Assembly: GCA_003576845.1 (NCBI GenBank)
Contig: QEVJ01000037.1
Span: 1 to 43,202, forward strand
Direction: 5' to 3'
Length of the DNA: 43,202 bases
Source: Planctomycetota bacterium
GTDB taxonomy: Bacteria > Planctomycetota > Planctomycetia > Pirellulales > PLA5
Below, piece after piece: positions 5,915 to 40,148 of the stretch. The stretch's first letter is position 1. Each line of letters begins with the position of its first letter. The notes beneath the pieces were generated by a model. It saw only the letters and a list, made by a program, of their open reading frames with translations, ran no database searches and had not been told where the DNA came from. The translations under genes were made by a program, and so were the position numbers.

Positions 5915-5918
5915 TTCT

Positions 5919-6065
5919 TAACCACAGAGGACACGGAGGACACAGAGGAAGAAATGAAGAATACAAAATGAAGATCCGTTTGAAGTGCAGGGACGATCGC
6001 GGAATCGAAGCGCCGTCATTTTTCATTCTTCATTTTGCCTTTTGCATTTCCTCCGTGTGTTTAAG
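5919..6065. repeat. two-layer inverted word-repeat element, purQ-gspM spacer
   Basis: The spacer between the convergent purQ and gspM is one nested element. The outer left arm (5919-5949) is of TTAACCACAGAGGACACGG type and the outer right arm is CCTCCGTGTGTTTAA (6051-6065). Inner arms are AAATGAAGAATAC-type (5952-5974) and TTTTCATTCTTCATTTTGCC-type (6020-6050). The core between (about 5975-6017) is GC-rich and contains GACGATCGCGGAATCG. Both outer ends are TTAA. Confidence 0.75.
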
Positions 6066-6073
6066 GGACCACC

Positions 6074-22360: not shown

Positions 22361-22377
22361 CAACCCGAACAGCCTTG

Positions 22378-23922
22378 ATGAGCGAGCAAAAGCCAGAGCC
22401 GGCGACCGAAAGTCCGAAGCCGGGCCGCGTCTATCTGGTCGGCGGCGGGCCGGGAGACCCGGGTCTCATCACGCTCCGCGGCGTCGAGTGCCTGCGGCGG
22501 GCGGACGTCGTGGTGTACGACTACCTGGTGAATCCGCGCGTCCTCCGGCATGCCCGACGCGACGCCGAGCTCGTCTGTTTGGGCCGACACGGCCACGGGC
22601 GGGTCATGAATCAAGACGAGATCAACGCCCTGCTCGTCGGCCGCAGCCTCGCGGGAAAGACCGTCGTGCGGCTCAAAGGGGGCGATCCCGCGATCTTCGG
22701 GCATCTGGGCGACGAGGCGGCGGCGCTGGCCGCGGCGGGAGTTCCGTTCGAGGTCGTGCCCGGCGTCACGGCCGCTTCCGCCGCGGCGAGCTATGCGGGC
22801 GTGCCGCTTACGCATCGCGACAGTGCTTCGGCCGTGGCGTTTGTCGCGGGTCATCAACGGTGCGACGCCGAGGCGAACGGGCTGGATGCGGCGGCGCTTG
22901 CCGCGTTTCCCGGCACGCTCGTCATCTACATGGGCGTGACCACGGCGGCGACTTGGACGCGGGAGTTGATCGCCGCGGGGAAGAAGCCCGAAACACCGGT
23001 GGCGATCGTGCGGCGAGCGAGCTTACCGGATCAGGAGCGGTGGTTCTGCCGGCTCGACGAAGTTGCGGCGCGGTTGAGCACGGGGCACATCCGTCCGCCG
23101 GTGCTGGTGATCGTCGGCGAAGTTGCCCGCGCCGACGCGACGCTTGAATGGATTACGCACCGGCCGCTCTTTGGCAAGACGGTACTCGTAACGCGCGCCG
23201 TGGATCAAGCGGACGAGTTGTATGCGGCGCTGGCGGAACTCGGGGCGAACGTGCTCGTGCAGCCGGCGATCGAGATTCTGCCCGTCGAGGGTTTCGGCGA
23301 GCTCGATCGGGCGATCGCTCGGCTCGGCGAGTTTGAGTGGCTCGTGTTTTCGAGCGCCAACGGCGTGCGGTTCTTTTTCGAGCGGCTCTTGGCGAGCGGC
23401 GACTTGCGGCGACTCTTTTTGGTGAAGCTCGCGGCGATTGGGCCGGGCACTGCCGAAGCGCTGGCCGAGTACCACCTGCGGCCCGACCTGGTACCGGGCG
23501 AGTATCGCGCGGAAGCGCTCGCCGAGGAACTCGCGCCGCACGCCGCGGGCACGCGGGTATTGCTCGTACGAGCAAGCCGCGGACGCGAAGTGCTCGCCGA
23601 ACAGCTTTCCGCGGCGGGGGCAACGGTCGAGCAGGTCGTGGCCTATCGCAGCGTCGACGTGGCGCAGGCCGACGCAGAAATCGTCGACGCGATCGACGCC
23701 GACCGAGTCGATTGGATCACGGTGACCAGTTCCGCAATTGCCCGGTCGCTCGTCAAAATGCTGGGCGAGCGATTGCGAAAGAGCAAGCTGGCGACGATCA
23801 GCCCGCTGACTACGGAGGCGCTTCGCGAGCAAGGCCATGAAGCGGCGGCGGAGGCGGGCGAGTATACAATGGCGGGTGTGGTCGCGGCGATCGTCGACGC
23901 CGAATCGCAACGTGCGCAATGA
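22378..23922 (+). CDS. uroporphyrinogen-III C-methyltransferase / uroporphyrinogen-III synthase fusion
   Basis: A 514-residue two-domain enzyme of tetrapyrrole synthesis. Residues ~16-255 are a CobA/SUMT methyltransferase (VGGGPGDPGLITLRG at 21-35, VVRLKGGDPAIFGHLG, VVPGVTAASAAASYAG, and the late RASLPDQ). This domain makes precorrin-2 from uroporphyrinogen III with SAM. Residues ~262-512 are a HemD-type uroporphyrinogen-III synthase (GKTVLVTRAVDQADEL, FSSANGVRFFFERL, AIGPGTAEAL, TSSAIARSLVKML), which closes the ring. The fusion makes and uses the same intermediate, at the heme/siroheme-cobamide branch, and is known in several phyla. No other heme gene is nearby. ATG 22378 is preferred over TTG 22375. 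Confidence 0.93.
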   Translation: MSEQKPEPATESPKPGRVYLVGGGPGDPGLITLRGVECLRRADVVVYDYLVNPRVLRHARRDAELVCLGRHGHGRVMNQDEINALLVGRSLAGKTVVRLKGGDPAIFGHLGDEAAALAAAGVPFEVVPGVTAASAAASYAGVPLTHRDSASAVAFVAGHQRCDAEANGLDAAALAAFPGTLVIYMGVTTAATWTRELIAAGKKPETPVAIVRRASLPDQERWFCRLDEVAARLSTGHIRPPVLVIVGEVARADATLEWITHRPLFGKTVLVTRAVDQADELYAALAELGANVLVQPAIEILPVEGFGELDRAIARLGEFEWLVFSSANGVRFFFERLLASGDLRRLFLVKLAAIGPGTAEALAEYHLRPDLVPGEYRAEALAEELAPHAAGTRVLLVRASRGREVLAEQLSAAGATVEQVVAYRSVDVAQADAEIVDAIDADRVDWITVTSSAIARSLVKMLGERLRKSKLATISPLTTEALREQGHEAAAEAGEYTMAGVVAAIVDAESQRAQ

Positions 23923-23923
23923 T

Positions 23924-25426
23924 CTATCGCTTCACGCCCTCGCGGCGCTGTTTTTCCTGGTACTTCTCGTACAGCCGCTTGTGCCGGTTGGACAAGTCGA
24001 CCTGGCGGCCTTGGACGAAGGCTTGTTCGACGTGGGTGGCGACTTCGAGGATGTCGCCGTCGGCGATGAAGAGCGTGGCGTCTTTGCCGGCTTCGAGCGA
24101 GCCGGCGCGGTCGCCGATGCCGAGAATCTGTGCGGCGGAGAGCGTGACCGACTTGAGGGCTTCGTCCGGAGGCAGACCATAGGCGGCGGCTTTGGCGGCT
24201 TCGTAGGGCAGGTTGCGGATGTTCGACGCTTCGAACTTGCCGCCGTCGCAGATGCAGAACTTGACGCCGGCCTGGCGCAGTCGCTCCGGCACGGTAAACG
24301 GCGCGTCGAACGGATCGCTGCGGCGCATCGGCAGGCGATTGACGCTGTTGACGACGACCGGGATGTCGTGCTCTTTGAGCAGCGCGGCCGCGTGCGGGGC
24401 GTCGTAGCCGCCGACGATCACGAGCTTGAGATTCTCCTTGAGCGCGAACGCGACGGCCGCTTGAATCTCGACGATCTCGTCCGCCCGCACAAATACCGGC
24501 AGCTTGCGGTCGAAGACTTGCAAGAGTGCTTCGTAACGCACGTCGAGGGGCGTGTTCGGATTGCCGGCCCGCGCCTTGGCGTAGGCCCGGGCATCGTCGA
24601 ACGTCTTGCGGAGGAGCGTGAGCTGCTCGTTGCGGTTTTCGGGCGGGGGTTGCTGCCCGCCGATGCCGACTTCCCAACTGCGGGCGGCGGACATGCGAGG
24701 CCAGTTGATGTGCATGCCGACGGGCGCGGCGAGCGTCATGTCTTCCCACGTCCAGCCGTCGAGGGCGACGACCGCAGATTGGCCTTGAATAAGCTGCCCG
24801 CGGGGCGTGACTTGCGCCAGCAGCACGCCGTTCGCACGCGTCACCGGGATCAGTTCGCTGTCGGGATTGACGGCGACTTGCGCGCGGACGTTGGGATTGA
24901 TCGGGCCAACTTCGGTGTGGTCGATCGTGGCGCGGATCGAATCGACTTCGACGAGGCCGAGCGTCGAGTTGGCGGCGATGAGCCCGGGAAAGACATGCTT
25001 GCCCTTCGCGTCGATCCGCGTCGCGCCGCCGGGAATGGCCGTGTCCGCTCCGCCGACGGAGGTGAGCTTGCCCGAGTCGAAAACGACGACGCCGTTTTCG
25101 ATCACCGGGCCGCAGGCCGTGTGGACGGTTGCGCCGACGATGGCGATGGGGCCGGACTGGGGCGCGCCGGGAATCTCCGGCCCGGCGCTAGCGACGCTTG
25201 CGATAAGCGCAAATATGGCGAGAACAACGAATCCAGTCGCGAATCTTGGCGTTGAACGTGAGGTTGAGTTGATTCGTTTTTTAACGCAGAGGGCGCAGAG
25301 GTCTCGCAGGGGGCGCAGAGAAGACAGGCGAGTGAATTGCAGAGATGGCCGTTTTGAGTTCACAGTTTGCAGAGTGGAACTCTCCGCGCCCTCTGCGCCC
25401 TCTGCGTTAAAGAAGTACCGATTCAT
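23924..25426 (-). CDS. exported amidohydrolase-family protein, metal site degenerate, repeat-derived N-terminus
   Basis: About 500 residues. The body (from ~90) is an amidohydrolase-type fold: a beta-sandwich start IAIVGATVHTACGPVIENGVVVFD, the GKHVFPGLI strand, and the C-terminal VTLSAAQILGIGDRAGSLEAGKDATLFI. The metal motif expected after PGLI (D-x-H-x-H) is replaced by AANSTLG, so hydrolase activity is doubtful. A signal-like helix is at 63-82 (FVVLAIFALIASVASA). The start is unclear: no ATG, GTG or TTG lies between that helix and the upstream repeat. The nearest starts (ATG 25426, or GTG inside the element) read through the repeat at 25281-25410. This gives residues NAEGAEGAESS and LRPLRDLCALCVKK, plain repeat translation. 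It is convergent with cobA-hemD and downstream of a paralogue. Confidence 0.72.
   Translation of the reverse strand: MNRYFFNAEGAEGAESSTLQTVNSKRPSLQFTRLSSLRPLRDLCALCVKKRINSTSRSTPRFATGFVVLAIFALIASVASAGPEIPGAPQSGPIAIVGATVHTACGPVIENGVVVFDSGKLTSVGGADTAIPGGATRIDAKGKHVFPGLIAANSTLGLVEVDSIRATIDHTEVGPINPNVRAQVAVNPDSELIPVTRANGVLLAQVTPRGQLIQGQSAVVALDGWTWEDMTLAAPVGMHINWPRMSAARSWEVGIGGQQPPPENRNEQLTLLRKTFDDARAYAKARAGNPNTPLDVRYEALLQVFDRKLPVFVRADEIVEIQAAVAFALKENLKLVIVGGYDAPHAAALLKEHDIPVVVNSVNRLPMRRSDPFDAPFTVPERLRQAGVKFCICDGGKFEASNIRNLPYEAAKAAAYGLPPDEALKSVTLSAAQILGIGDRAGSLEAGKDATLFIADGDILEVATHVEQAFVQGRQVDLSNRHKRLYEKYQEKQRREGVKR
25281..25410. repeat. 130-base element with perfect 21-bp inverted ends
   Basis: The element begins TTAACGCAGAGGGCGCAGAG (25281-25300, plus G) and ends with the exact complement (25390-25410), giving perfect 21-bp terminal inverted repeats that start and end in TTAA. 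Further imperfect GCAGAG words follow each end inward. The ~60-base centre (25321-25380) is less ordered. It lies inside the N-terminal open frame of the amidohydrolase-family gene. Confidence 0.85.
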
Positions 25427-25488
25427 TTTTGCTTGATGCTGAGAGTTGGCGAGCGATGTTTCCATCGAAGTATTCTTGGTGGCGGACA

Positions 25489-28400
25489 CTATTGATCGGC
25501 GGACCGGCAGCGGCAGTAGATATCGGTTTTGGGCCAGAGGTCTTCTTCGAGCGGTTCGGCTTCGCCCGGTTGGGCTATGCTCGCGCCGGAGGAGAGGATG
25601 CGCTGGACGAGCTTCGCACGAAGATCGTCGTCGCGCTTGCGCATGGCGGCGTCGTTGGCAAGGTCGAAATACTTGCGTCCGTCGATCCAGGTTTGCTCGC
25701 AGCGCGAGTAACTCGATAGCGGCGAACCGCTCCAGACGACGAGATCGGCGTCCTTGCCCGGTTCGAGCGAGCCGACTCTGTGGTCGATCCCGAGTTGCTT
25801 TGCCGGATTGAGCGTGACGAACTTGAGCGCTTCCTCGGGAGCGACGCCGCCGTACTTGACGGCTTTCGCGGCTTCGAGATTCATCCGCCGGCCGAGTTCC
25901 GCGTCGTCGGAGTTGAACGACGTGTTGATGCCCGCCCGGTGCAGGAGGGCGCCGTTGTACGGAATCGCGTCGACGACTTCGAACTTGTAGTTCCACCAGT
26001 CGGAAAACGACGAACCGGCCGCGCCGTGCTTGGCGATGGCGTCGCTGACCTTGTAGCCTTCGAGGATGTGCTGGAGGGTGCCGATTCGAATGTGGAACTG
26101 TTCGCAGGTGCGGAGCAGGGCGAGGATTTCGTCCTGGCGGTAGGAATGGCAGTGGATCATGCGGCGGCCTTCAAGGATTTCGACGAGCGCTTCGAGTTCG
26201 AGATCGACGCGCGGCGGCAGGCCCGTGTGGTTCTTCTTCCAGTCGAGATGCCGGTCGCGATATTGGCGGGCGGCGAGGAAGGCGTCACGCATGATCTGTT
26301 CGACGCCGGGCCGCGACTGGGGATAGCGCGAGGTCGCATTGGGCACGTTGCTTTGCTTGACGTTTTCGCCGAGGGCGAACTTGATGCCCGGGGGAGCGCC
26401 GGCGAATTTGACTTCCTCCGGCAAACCGCTCCAGCGGAGTTTGATGACCTGATTCTGGCCACCGATGGGATTCGCGGAACCGTGCAAGATGTTGGCCGCG
26501 GTGAGTCCGCCGGCGAGTTGGCGGTAGATGCTGATGTCGTCGGGATTGACGAAATCGCCGATGCGGACTTCCGCCGTGATCGCCTGGGTGGCTTCGTTGA
26601 TGCCGCCGTCACTGGCGATGTGCGAATGACAATCGATCATGCCTGCGGAAATGTGCTTGCCGGCGGCGTCGACGACGATTGCGCCTTCGGGTGTGGGGAG
26701 ATTTTGGCCGACGGTTTCGATCTTGCCTTCGCGGACGACGATCGACGCGTCTTGGAGCGTGCCGGCGGGGCCGCTGGTCCAGATCGTGGCGCCGCGAAAG
26801 ACGACGACTTTCGGTTGCTCCGGTGGGGCAGCGCGGCCGAACGCGCCGAAGGGATAGTTGACCGGGGAGATGGGTGGTTGCGGCTTGTCGGCGTCGTCGG
26901 TATCTGGCGGGTTGCCGGGCTTTTTCGAGTCGTCCGCCGTGGCGTCGCTCGGTTTGGCGTCGCTCGGTTTCGCGTCGAGCTTCGGCACGTCGGTGCTCGC
27001 GCGCGTTGCGGAAAAGGCGAACGTCGCGCCGTCGGGCCAAATGCCGCTACCGGGACCGAGCGAGGCCTGTTCGGCGGCGAGGTTGACGATGGCCGTTGCG
27101 CGGGCGATGCCGGCGCGGTCGAGATCGTCGGACTTGAAGACGATCGTGAGGCGGCCTTCCTCGATCGCGATCGATTTCGCGTCGATTTTCTGTTCGCCAA
27201 CGGCAAGTTGTGCCTTCGGCTTGTCGGCTTCGCCGGCGATGAGGAGCGTCGCATCGAGTGCGGTATCGGCGGTGGTCAGTTTCGCCGCCCACGTGCCGCG
27301 AACGTCTTGTAGCGGCGGCGGTTTGATTTCGTGCCGCTTGCCGCCGACCCAGGTTTCGAGAATCTTGGTCTTCTTGGCGAAGAGGTCTCCGTCGGCAACG
27401 ACGAGATTCGCCGACTTGCCGGCTTCGACCGTACCGAGGCGATTGTCGACGCCGAAGAGCTTGGCGGGCGTGGTCGTGAGCGCGCGGAGGGCCGCTTCGC
27501 TCGACAGGCCGCGCTCGACTGCCTGGCGGACGTTCTTCAAGAACTCGCCCGCGTCGCGGAGGCCATTCGTCGTGAGCGCGATCGTAACGCCAGCGCGATC
27601 GAGCCGCCCCGGGTTTTCCGGCGCGAGCTCCCAGTGCATTAGGCGTTCGAGCGGCGCGCTGAGCGCGGCTTCCGGCGATGAGACATCGGGAGCGCGGGGA
27701 AACGCGACGGGCACGATGATCGCGCGGCCCGTCTTGGCGACGGCGTCGAGGCGTTGATATTCGCGGCCCGAGCCACGGACGATCGCTCGCAAGCCGAACT
27801 CGCGGGCGATCTGGTCGGCGCGGAACACGTACAACTCCGTCGGCGCGTCGACGATGACGGAACGTTCGCCGTCGACGACCGGTTCGAGCGCGGCGAGCGC
27901 GTCGTTGCGCTCGGGACGCGGCAACCGCGAGTCGGCGGCCGCGGCGGCTTGAGCCGACTTGTACCACTGGGCGTCGAGCAGCGTTTGGCGGGCGAGCGCG
28001 AGGGCGCCCATCGGCGAGCCGGGGTATTCCTGCGCCGTGCGGCGGCGGGCGATGCGCGGGACAGTCAACGTGGCGTGCATCGCGATGCCGCTCTTGACGA
28101 TCGTCGCGCCGCCGTCGCCTTCGCCGGTGGTCACGACCGCGGAAAGGCCTTTGAAGATTCCGGCGCTCGGCGCGACGAGGCGCGCGGTGATGCCCTGGCC
28201 GCGGAGGGTGGCGTTCGTTTTTGCGTCGCCTAGATAGACCGCGGCGACATCGACTTGCGGGACGATGTTCGCGTTCCAATGGTTTGCGCCGCCGGTGGGA
28301 GCGGGGACGTCGATTTCGGCGAAAGCGTCGATCAGGCCCGCGTAGATCGTCTTGCGGGCGAGGTCGATGACGCGGGCATCGGCGGGAGGTTTCACGTCGG

Positions 28401-28659
28401 CGCCAACCGCTTCGAGGACACCGTCTCGAACGACGACCGTTCCCTTTTCGATTTCGCGGCCGGGGGCGACGACGATCTTCGCGTCGACAAGTGCGTAGAC
28501 CGAAGGCGTGTTCGTGCGCAGGCCGTCGGCGGGGCGGGTTGAGGTTTCGTCGGCGGCGTGCACTGGCTGAGCCAGTGCCACCGAAACCATCAGCACCGAC
28601 ACGGCAATGACAAGCGGGAGTCGGCGACGCGGCCGGACGGGACGGGCGAAGATCGGCAT
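25489..28659 (-). CDS. exported tandem amidohydrolase-family protein (one degenerate, one intact domain)
   Basis: A 1056-residue exported protein with two amidohydrolase-type units. The signal peptide is residues 1-35 (RRRLPLVIAVSVLMVSVALA, cleavage near VHA/AD). Unit 1 (~54-540) begins VYALVDAKIVVAPG. After YAGLI it has DAFAE where a metal-binding D-x-H-x-H is expected, so it is probably inactive. A charged linker (~550-620, with DAKPSDAKPSDA) leads to unit 2 (~628-1056): VVVFRGATIWTSG, then MIDCHSHIASDGG with H678 and H680 in place, later MIHCHSYR and the C-terminal LGIDHRVGSLEPGKDADLVVW. Unit 2 could be an active imidazolonepropionase- or dipeptidase-like hydrolase; the substrate is unknown. 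The signal peptide end is encoded by a REP-like palindrome. ATG 28659 was chosen as the start of the signal peptide. Confidence 0.82.
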   Translation of the reverse strand: MPIFARPVRPRRRLPLVIAVSVLMVSVALAQPVHAADETSTRPADGLRTNTPSVYALVDAKIVVAPGREIEKGTVVVRDGVLEAVGADVKPPADARVIDLARKTIYAGLIDAFAEIDVPAPTGGANHWNANIVPQVDVAAVYLGDAKTNATLRGQGITARLVAPSAGIFKGLSAVVTTGEGDGGATIVKSGIAMHATLTVPRIARRRTAQEYPGSPMGALALARQTLLDAQWYKSAQAAAAADSRLPRPERNDALAALEPVVDGERSVIVDAPTELYVFRADQIAREFGLRAIVRGSGREYQRLDAVAKTGRAIIVPVAFPRAPDVSSPEAALSAPLERLMHWELAPENPGRLDRAGVTIALTTNGLRDAGEFLKNVRQAVERGLSSEAALRALTTTPAKLFGVDNRLGTVEAGKSANLVVADGDLFAKKTKILETWVGGKRHEIKPPPLQDVRGTWAAKLTTADTALDATLLIAGEADKPKAQLAVGEQKIDAKSIAIEEGRLTIVFKSDDLDRAGIARATAIVNLAAEQASLGPGSGIWPDGATFAFSATRASTDVPKLDAKPSDAKPSDATADDSKKPGNPPDTDDADKPQPPISPVNYPFGAFGRAAPPEQPKVVVFRGATIWTSGPAGTLQDASIVVREGKIETVGQNLPTPEGAIVVDAAGKHISAGMIDCHSHIASDGGINEATQAITAEVRIGDFVNPDDISIYRQLAGGLTAANILHGSANPIGGQNQVIKLRWSGLPEEVKFAGAPPGIKFALGENVKQSNVPNATSRYPQSRPGVEQIMRDAFLAARQYRDRHLDWKKNHTGLPPRVDLELEALVEILEGRRMIHCHSYRQDEILALLRTCEQFHIRIGTLQHILEGYKVSDAIAKHGAAGSSFSDWWNYKFEVVDAIPYNGALLHRAGINTSFNSDDAELGRRMNLEAAKAVKYGGVAPEEALKFVTLNPAKQLGIDHRVGSLEPGKDADLVVWSGSPLSSYSRCEQTWIDGRKYFDLANDAAMRKRDDDLRAKLVQRILSSGASIAQPGEAEPLEEDLWPKTDIYCRCRSADQ
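28559..28582. repeat. REP-like palindrome in the signal peptide of the tandem amidohydrolase
   Basis: GCACTGGC-TGA-GCCAGTGC (28560-28578) plus CACC. Read on the gene strand it gives GGTGGCACTGG and continues CTCAGCCAGTGC, the same unit as at 5664-5684 in purQ. It encodes VALAQPVHA, including the likely signal peptidase site, in the same frame as VALASPVHS of purQ. Confidence 0.75.
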
Positions 28660-28876
28660 GTGGAGAATCTCAGGCAGAGGAGGCGGGAGCGGCGGCATGG
28701 TCGCGCCGCTGCGCTCCATGCGGGACGATTTCGATTGGGGCGGGTTGGCTTGAGCGGCATCACTTGCCGCGGGCGGGAACGTGCAGCGCCGCACGGTTCG
28801 AGTTTAATTGCCCAAGAGCGGCGAAGCTACCAGGAATCGTGGGCGTTTTGCGGGCGTGCGTGCAAGCTGCGGCGAA

Positions 28877-39960: not shown

Positions 39961-40122
39961 GGGCGGGATTCGGAATTCGGGATTCAGAATTCAGGGGTGA
40001 CGAACGATGAACTCATCGAAAGCGATCGGCAGACTCAATTCATCGCTTCTCGCTCATCAATCCCGCTCATCACTTGCCTTCCTCCGTGTCCTCTGTGCCG
40101 CCTCCGTGTTCTCTGTGTTTAA
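39961..40122. repeat. composite word-repeat element, fabH upstream spacer
   Basis: Three word types are joined here. GGGATTCGGAATTCGGGATT-type words are at 39964-39997, next to the fabH start. GATGAACTCATCG and its complement-like TCATCGCTTCTCGCTCATC surround a small core with GCGATCGGCAGACTC (about 40001-40075). CCTCCGTGTCCTCTGTG-type words are at 40081-40122, ending GTGTTTAAG. It fills the whole space between fabH and the oxidoreductase gene. Confidence 0.7.
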
Positions 40123-40148
40123 GAAACCGATTCCATTCGCCGCGCGAG

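Follow-up and report, generated by a model that had tools for sequence, protein, structure and literature searches.

The window, a 43,202-nucleotide stretch of DNA from a Planctomycetota bacterium, contains an amidohydrolase gene with an inverted element in its 5′-region. The features of this region, with coordinates given on the window, are:

23924–25426, minus strand: amidohydrolase gene (Amidohydro_1), in the reading that starts at ATG 25426 and crosses the element
25184–25231, minus strand: signal-peptide hydrophobic core, FVVLAIFALIASVASA, located downstream of the element
25262–25280, plus strand: left arm, outer conserved segment; consensus of the family GTTGGTTCGTTTTTTAA
25281–25410, no strand assigned: element core, inverted arms plus a 61-bp spacer, as originally delimited
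25285–25320, plus strand: left arm, four tandem heptamers CGCAGAG/CGCAGAG/CGCAGGG/CGCAGAG, spacing 9/11/9
25321–25381, no strand assigned: spacer of the element
25361–25363, minus strand: in-frame GTG within the spacer, an alternative start
25382–25406, minus strand: right arm, three tandem heptamers CGCAGAG/CGCAGAG/CGCGGAG, spacing 9/9
25411–25428, minus strand: right arm, outer conserved segment of TCGGTACTTC type, common to other copies
25424–25426, minus strand: in-frame ATG just upstream of the element
25489–28794, minus strand: two-domain amidohydrolase of 1101 aa, upstream neighbour in the same direction

Additionally, uroporphyrinogen-III methyltransferase and uroporphyrinogen-III synthase were, by eye, apparently fused in a single reading frame at 22375–23922.

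The original prediction had described the element as MITE-like, with perfect 21-bp inverted ends that were sharp at TTAA. The ends (TTAACGCAGAGGGCGCAGAGG) were indeed inverted and exact, at 25281–25301 (plus) and 25390–25410 (minus). Their sharpness was not borne out: the 21 bp are the inner portion of longer arms, composed of tandem CGCAGAG heptamers and approximately 20 conserved bases outside TTAA, and homology to other copies extended about 20 bp outward past TTAA (consensus ends GGTTcgTTTTTTAA) as well as inward into a four-heptamer arm. The right arm of the window element is a three-heptamer variant of this four-heptamer family arm. The spacer had no full-length relative among the 34 other elements, with a single partial match of 29 bp. 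The strand of the element folded more strongly than its dinucleotide shuffles (z = −6.5 with DNA parameters, 0 of 200 shuffles equal), and an Rfam search returned no match.

The start of the amidohydrolase gene

Four in-frame starts were found for the Amidohydro_1 gene: GTG 25489, which is overlapped by the stop of the upstream two-domain amidohydrolase gene, ATG 25465, ATG 25426 and GTG 25363. As had been claimed, the frame contained no ATG, GTG or TTG between the element and the signal helix. Three of the starts lie upstream of the element, where all of them had been placed; GTG 25363, within the element, had been missed. Given a start at ATG 25426, the element accounts for about 43 codons, compared with the predicted figure of roughly 45 repeat-encoded residues before the signal sequence. 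An open frame was rejected as a sign of selection: it carries little information because one or more frames are fully open in 29 of 35 such elements of the genome.

Comparison with the orthologue of the only same-genus relative (G001), a check proposed with the original prediction, agreed with it. The two genes showed 80% identity, the G001 orthologue was without the element, and no upstream residues were common to both. In the G001 gap ahead of the orthologue lies an arm whose heptamers are of a different flavour (CTCCGTGTCTCCGTGCCTCCGTGTTTC, coding strand). A GTG in frame within it would yield MSPCLRVSIKPALQAACFLVAQLVTITAQA, an ordinary signal peptide, and the G001 orthologue appears to start within this arm. 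Among orthologues from other families of the order with readable starts, nearly all had their start codon immediately ahead of the signal peptide. Because the element is absent from G001 and nearly all other orthologues start right at the signal peptide, repeats have probably displaced or rewritten the gene start in the two species of the genus. The idea of a repeat-written N-terminus or a lost start was strengthened by this comparison, its oversight being GTG 25363, and the sequences support an N-terminus of the amidohydrolase that may have been written by the repeat.

Long extensions ahead of a signal peptide are unusual, and an initiation at a rare codon such as ATC 25273, not through the element, would give a textbook signal peptide (MNSTSRSTPRFATGFVVLAIFALIASVASA); otherwise the enzyme may no longer be secreted. 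We consider this alternative unlikely, as ATC starts are rare, ATG 25426 and GTG 25363 are both in frame with no stops, and the G001 orthologue apparently also starts in a repeat, at GTG.

Other short repeats were observed in the gap upstream of the orthologous amidohydrolase. In G001 (L062, contig C380) a second, unrelated repeat, GCGTGGGCCGAACGAAGTGAAGCCCACC, gives the peptide AWAERSEAH, which is common in planctomycete annotations. The gaps of two further genomes contained an inverted GGTGGGACCAGCGAG (L041, G005) and a tandem AAAATCCAAAATCG (L045, G023), and because these genomes also hold other short repeats there, the gap seems to collect them.

The arm family in two species of one genus

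Analysis of the source genome (G000, 7.05 Mb in 289 contigs) with the arm pattern TTTAACGCAGAGGNCGCAGAGG, allowing up to three mismatches, revealed 123 matches, against 0 for the same pattern reversed. The MITE-like reading therefore stood in so far as the window element is an interspersed repeat, one of about a hundred copies in its genome. There were 45 matches in G001. In a DNA search of 97 genomes of the order (these two and 95 more), only these two yielded copies.

Within the stretches of sequence analysed 109 arms were mapped. Eighty of these had four units, spaced 9/11/9 in 65 cases. Neighbouring arms less than 800 bp apart faced inward in 35 instances and outward in none, with four in tandem. 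The spacers between paired arms were 40–403 bp, and most were unrelated to one another, the exceptions being one shared-spacer subfamily and nested repeats of other flavours. The subfamily, TTAAACGCGGAGGACGCAGAGG, was found on G000 contigs C4, C49, C115, C8, C190 and C257 (L155, L157, L158, L174, L149 and L176, respectively). Its 81-bp spacer is conserved, as is sequence beyond the arms (GCGAAGATTTGGGC..., GGTTGCGGCCACCGGCCGCGCTGGG), and it represents a duplicated repeat of larger size whose copies are more recent. The window also contained:

5918–6066: inverted element of flavour CACAGAGG (AACCACAGAGGACACGGAGGACACAGAGG ... TTTCCTCCGTGTGTTTAAG); its right arm is degenerate and it contains a palindrome, ATGAAGAAT/ATTCTTCAT
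40082–40124, minus strand: lone four-heptamer arm of CACAGAG/CACGGAG flavour, CTTAAACACAGAGAACACGGAGGCGGCACAGAGGACACGGAGG, with no partner arm within about 400 bp

Eleven other mapped copies, all located in gaps between genes, had syntenic context spanning the site in G001 and were compared by eye from the aligned gaps. At five of these sites the G001 gap had no arm (46–160 bp versus 292–472 bp), and at four it had an arm or pair of a different flavour. A single unit was shared at one site, and at the other (L014/L122) the G001 gap contained other sequence and a short arm-like stretch. Neither a target-site duplication nor an exact empty site could be read at the G001 sites, whose gaps were too diverged to align. 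Because most of the compared sites were empty or differently occupied in G001, arm turnover appears to be fast relative to the divergence of the two species.

GxxExxY genes and their arms

One of the 35 paired copies in the source genome had a gene-sized spacer, and its content was a GxxExxY gene:

C193:4825–5329 (source genome): arm-bracketed GxxExxY gene, two full inverted arms and one gene of about 125 aa

The arms enclose nothing besides this gene, the product of which is a strong member of the GxxExxY family TIGR04256 / PF13366 (PDDEXK_3), at 145.7 bits against a cut-off of 35. The arms of the window element matched those on C193, and the window element belongs to the repeat family of this same-flavour GxxExxY element. 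The spacers of the gene-less copies were mostly unlike each other and unlike the gene. Where both flanks were available, the remaining complete GxxExxY genes of G000 and G001 were bracketed too, by arms of CGCAAAG, CACGGAG and CACGGAT flavour.

A locus was counted as bracketed if an inverted repeat between its 250-bp flanks beat all same-geometry controls of that locus. The first set comprised 33 GxxExxY loci of a separate genome collection, from Planctomycetota, Acidobacteriota, Chloroflexota and a single locus each of Verrucomicrobiota and Nitrospirota. Thirty-one were bracketed, counting the Verrucomicrobiota locus (L104), where the repeat is of unrelated sequence; of the two loci that failed, one was that of Nitrospirota. 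In the second set, from the order of the window, all 34 loci were bracketed. Combined, with one locus (L075 = L067) common to both sets, 65 of 67 loci were bracketed by inverted arms, mostly in Planctomycetota, Acidobacteriota and Chloroflexota, compared to 3 of 28 loci (no score above 25) for the ParE toxin, a control family that is likewise small and patchy (Fisher 2e-17). The usual reading of the GxxExxY arms was ACC-R-C-R-R-A-G, with one or two further heptamers behind it at 9–11 bp. Quite different arms were found at L218, L221 and L230 (GGGGATAA-like) and at L216 and L229 (CACGAATTACACGAATT), which widens the heptamer range.

The generic arm pattern CRCRRAGRNCRCRRAGR was counted in 146 genomes of the order, in 78 of which a PF13366 gene was present. 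The median count was 20.5 in these and 2 in the 68 genomes without the gene, and at least 30 arms were found in 32 of the former versus none of the latter. Per genome, arm count followed the gene with a Spearman coefficient of 0.74 (n = 146); permutation within taxonomic families gave p = 0.0002, p-values here being limited by the relatedness of genomes inside families. The arms belonging to the gene itself cannot explain the excess, because 31 of the 78 gene-bearing genomes carry at least 20 arms beyond four per gene. Up to 27 arms occurred in a few genomes lacking the gene. Protein distance co-varied with arm flavour (Mantel r = 0.45 over 55 loci; r = 0.38 in Planctomycetota alone).

In another genus of the order, for which several species are sequenced, most GxxExxY loci were syntenic and shared, not polymorphic. 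Arms in this genus were closer to their own partner than to the orthologous arm in five of six comparisons, and at one syntenic locus both arms had switched together from the CGCRGAG to the CGCRAAG type. Such concerted arms fit inter-arm copying, a pairing constraint or same-site replacement.

Across thirty GxxExxY members E30, D70, E80, K82, Q94 and Y98 were invariant, and the PD-(D/E)XK residue set E, D, ExK and QxxxY is present in the protein. A PD-(D/E)XK core with a QxxxY motif is known from RecB/Cas4-type nucleases. A fold search with the AlphaFold2 model (pLDDT 84) returned SSO0001 first, followed by lambda-type exonucleases and a Holliday-junction resolvase, all as weak matches (best E 0.004). 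The title of the first entry gives SSO0001 only, which we take to be Cas4. A profile search of solved structures gave no real match. From the invariant residues and these weak fold matches GxxExxY is predicted to be a small Cas4-like PD-(D/E)XK nuclease. In the searched open-access literature GxxExxY was mentioned twice, both times incidentally and once for a gene that another tool had annotated as cas4; PDDEXK_3 was not mentioned, and PF13366 appeared in one paper, on Arctic microalgae. The papers searched gave neither a function nor a repeat association for the family, and a search by the letters of the repeat found no relevant paper. No description of the pairing of arms with GxxExxY was found in this open-access library, and an earlier account may exist elsewhere.

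Origin of the insert and rival explanations

We consider it reasonably probable that the window insert derives from a GxxExxY element as a MITE-like form that lacks the gene, and mobilisation of the arms by the nuclease is the best-supported way in which the family may have spread. The complete form would consist of an arm, the GxxExxY nuclease gene and an inverted arm. The Cas4-like nuclease would recognise tandem heptamers of its own flavour, spaced about one per helical turn, and cut DNA there; repair or copying across the inverted arms would spread arms with or without the gene and would also keep the two arms of one copy alike. In the window, the insert would have landed between two neighbouring same-direction genes, just ahead of the signal peptide. 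Translation starting at ATG 25426 and running across the element, or starting at GTG 25363 within it, would have made good the displaced or lost start, and the enzyme would now have a repeat-encoded extension before its signal sequence (43 element codons from the ATG). The unrelated spacers of the gene-less copies count against deletion derivatives of one master, and as vertical sharing of gene-bearing copies is frequent among members of a genus, movement would be slow or rare. The weak fold matches and the arms of gene-less genomes count against this explanation.

MITEs with autonomous partners (reviewed in PMC10969869) are similarly short, with inverted terminal ends and many dispersed copies, and gene-less copies of the window family share their ends with the gene-bearing copy on C193; in-frame fusions are possible in both. 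Unlike MITEs, the window family has spacers that are mostly unrelated between copies, so that homology is not whole-length, and the partner is a predicted Cas4-like nuclease, not a known transposase. No target-site duplication could be read against the diverged gaps of the relative. Rickettsia palindromic elements (reviewed in PMC10969869) are also palindromic repeats of 100–150 bp that form an in-frame portion of a protein, as the window element may do: its frame is open and orthologues lack it. However, the window element is at the N-terminus ahead of a signal peptide, its sequence is unrelated, and the other compared copies of its family sit in gene gaps. REP/RAYT and TIR/TIRYT systems (PMC3733652) likewise have small repeats in gene gaps with each flavour tied to a bracketed gene, but their protein is an HUH tyrosine transposase whereas the one here is predicted to be PD-(D/E)XK, and the arms are tandem heptamers with no GTAG or GGGGWSAS tag.

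The strongest rival holds that the arms are hairpins maintained by the host, for transcript ends, mRNA stability or attenuation between genes, with GxxExxY as a passenger or regulated by the arms. Such a role is consistent with the strong folding of the window element, the intergenic position of the compared copies and the stable inheritance of some gene-bearing loci, and the concerted change of two arms would fit a pairing constraint. We nevertheless think it rather improbable, as the two congeneric species mostly do not share sites, one protein family is bracketed almost throughout and the control family is not, and arm number depends on the presence of the GxxExxY gene. An ordinary MITE of an undetected DDE transposase, with an indirect link to GxxExxY, would have the inverted ends and size observed, but the sole gene-sized spacer among the paired copies holds GxxExxY and bracketing of this family recurs across phyla, which leaves this reading quite improbable. 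Movement by a Y1 tyrosine transposase (TIRYT/RAYT), as in Acidobacteria and Rhodopirellula, is very improbable and was rejected: although such systems are known in related bacteria (PMC3733652) and the source genome has four Y1_Tnp genes, CGCAGAG arms bracket none of the four, one carries a repeat of its own, of the GGGGACGGGAG type and similar to the published GGGGWSAS motif (PMC3733652), and G001 has CGCAGAG arms with no Y1_Tnp detected.

If the arms are spread by the GxxExxY nuclease, these elements could, as a more tentative proposal, constitute a new class of selfish DNA. In it a stand-alone Cas4-like nuclease, with no known transposase, would propagate and homogenise inverted heptamer arrays of matching flavour, and gene-less copies would shape N-termini across several phyla. 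A protein family that was named yet without function gains a concrete context, with arms at nearly every locus and arm number following the gene, and it may account for a large class of interspersed repeats that environmental bacteria carry and that apparently has not been described. The amidohydrolase would represent one route by which repeats become protein parts, here ahead of a signal peptide, and start codons inside such repeats are relevant to gene calling. The window element suggests a poorly described selfish DNA family able to rewrite the front ends of genes.
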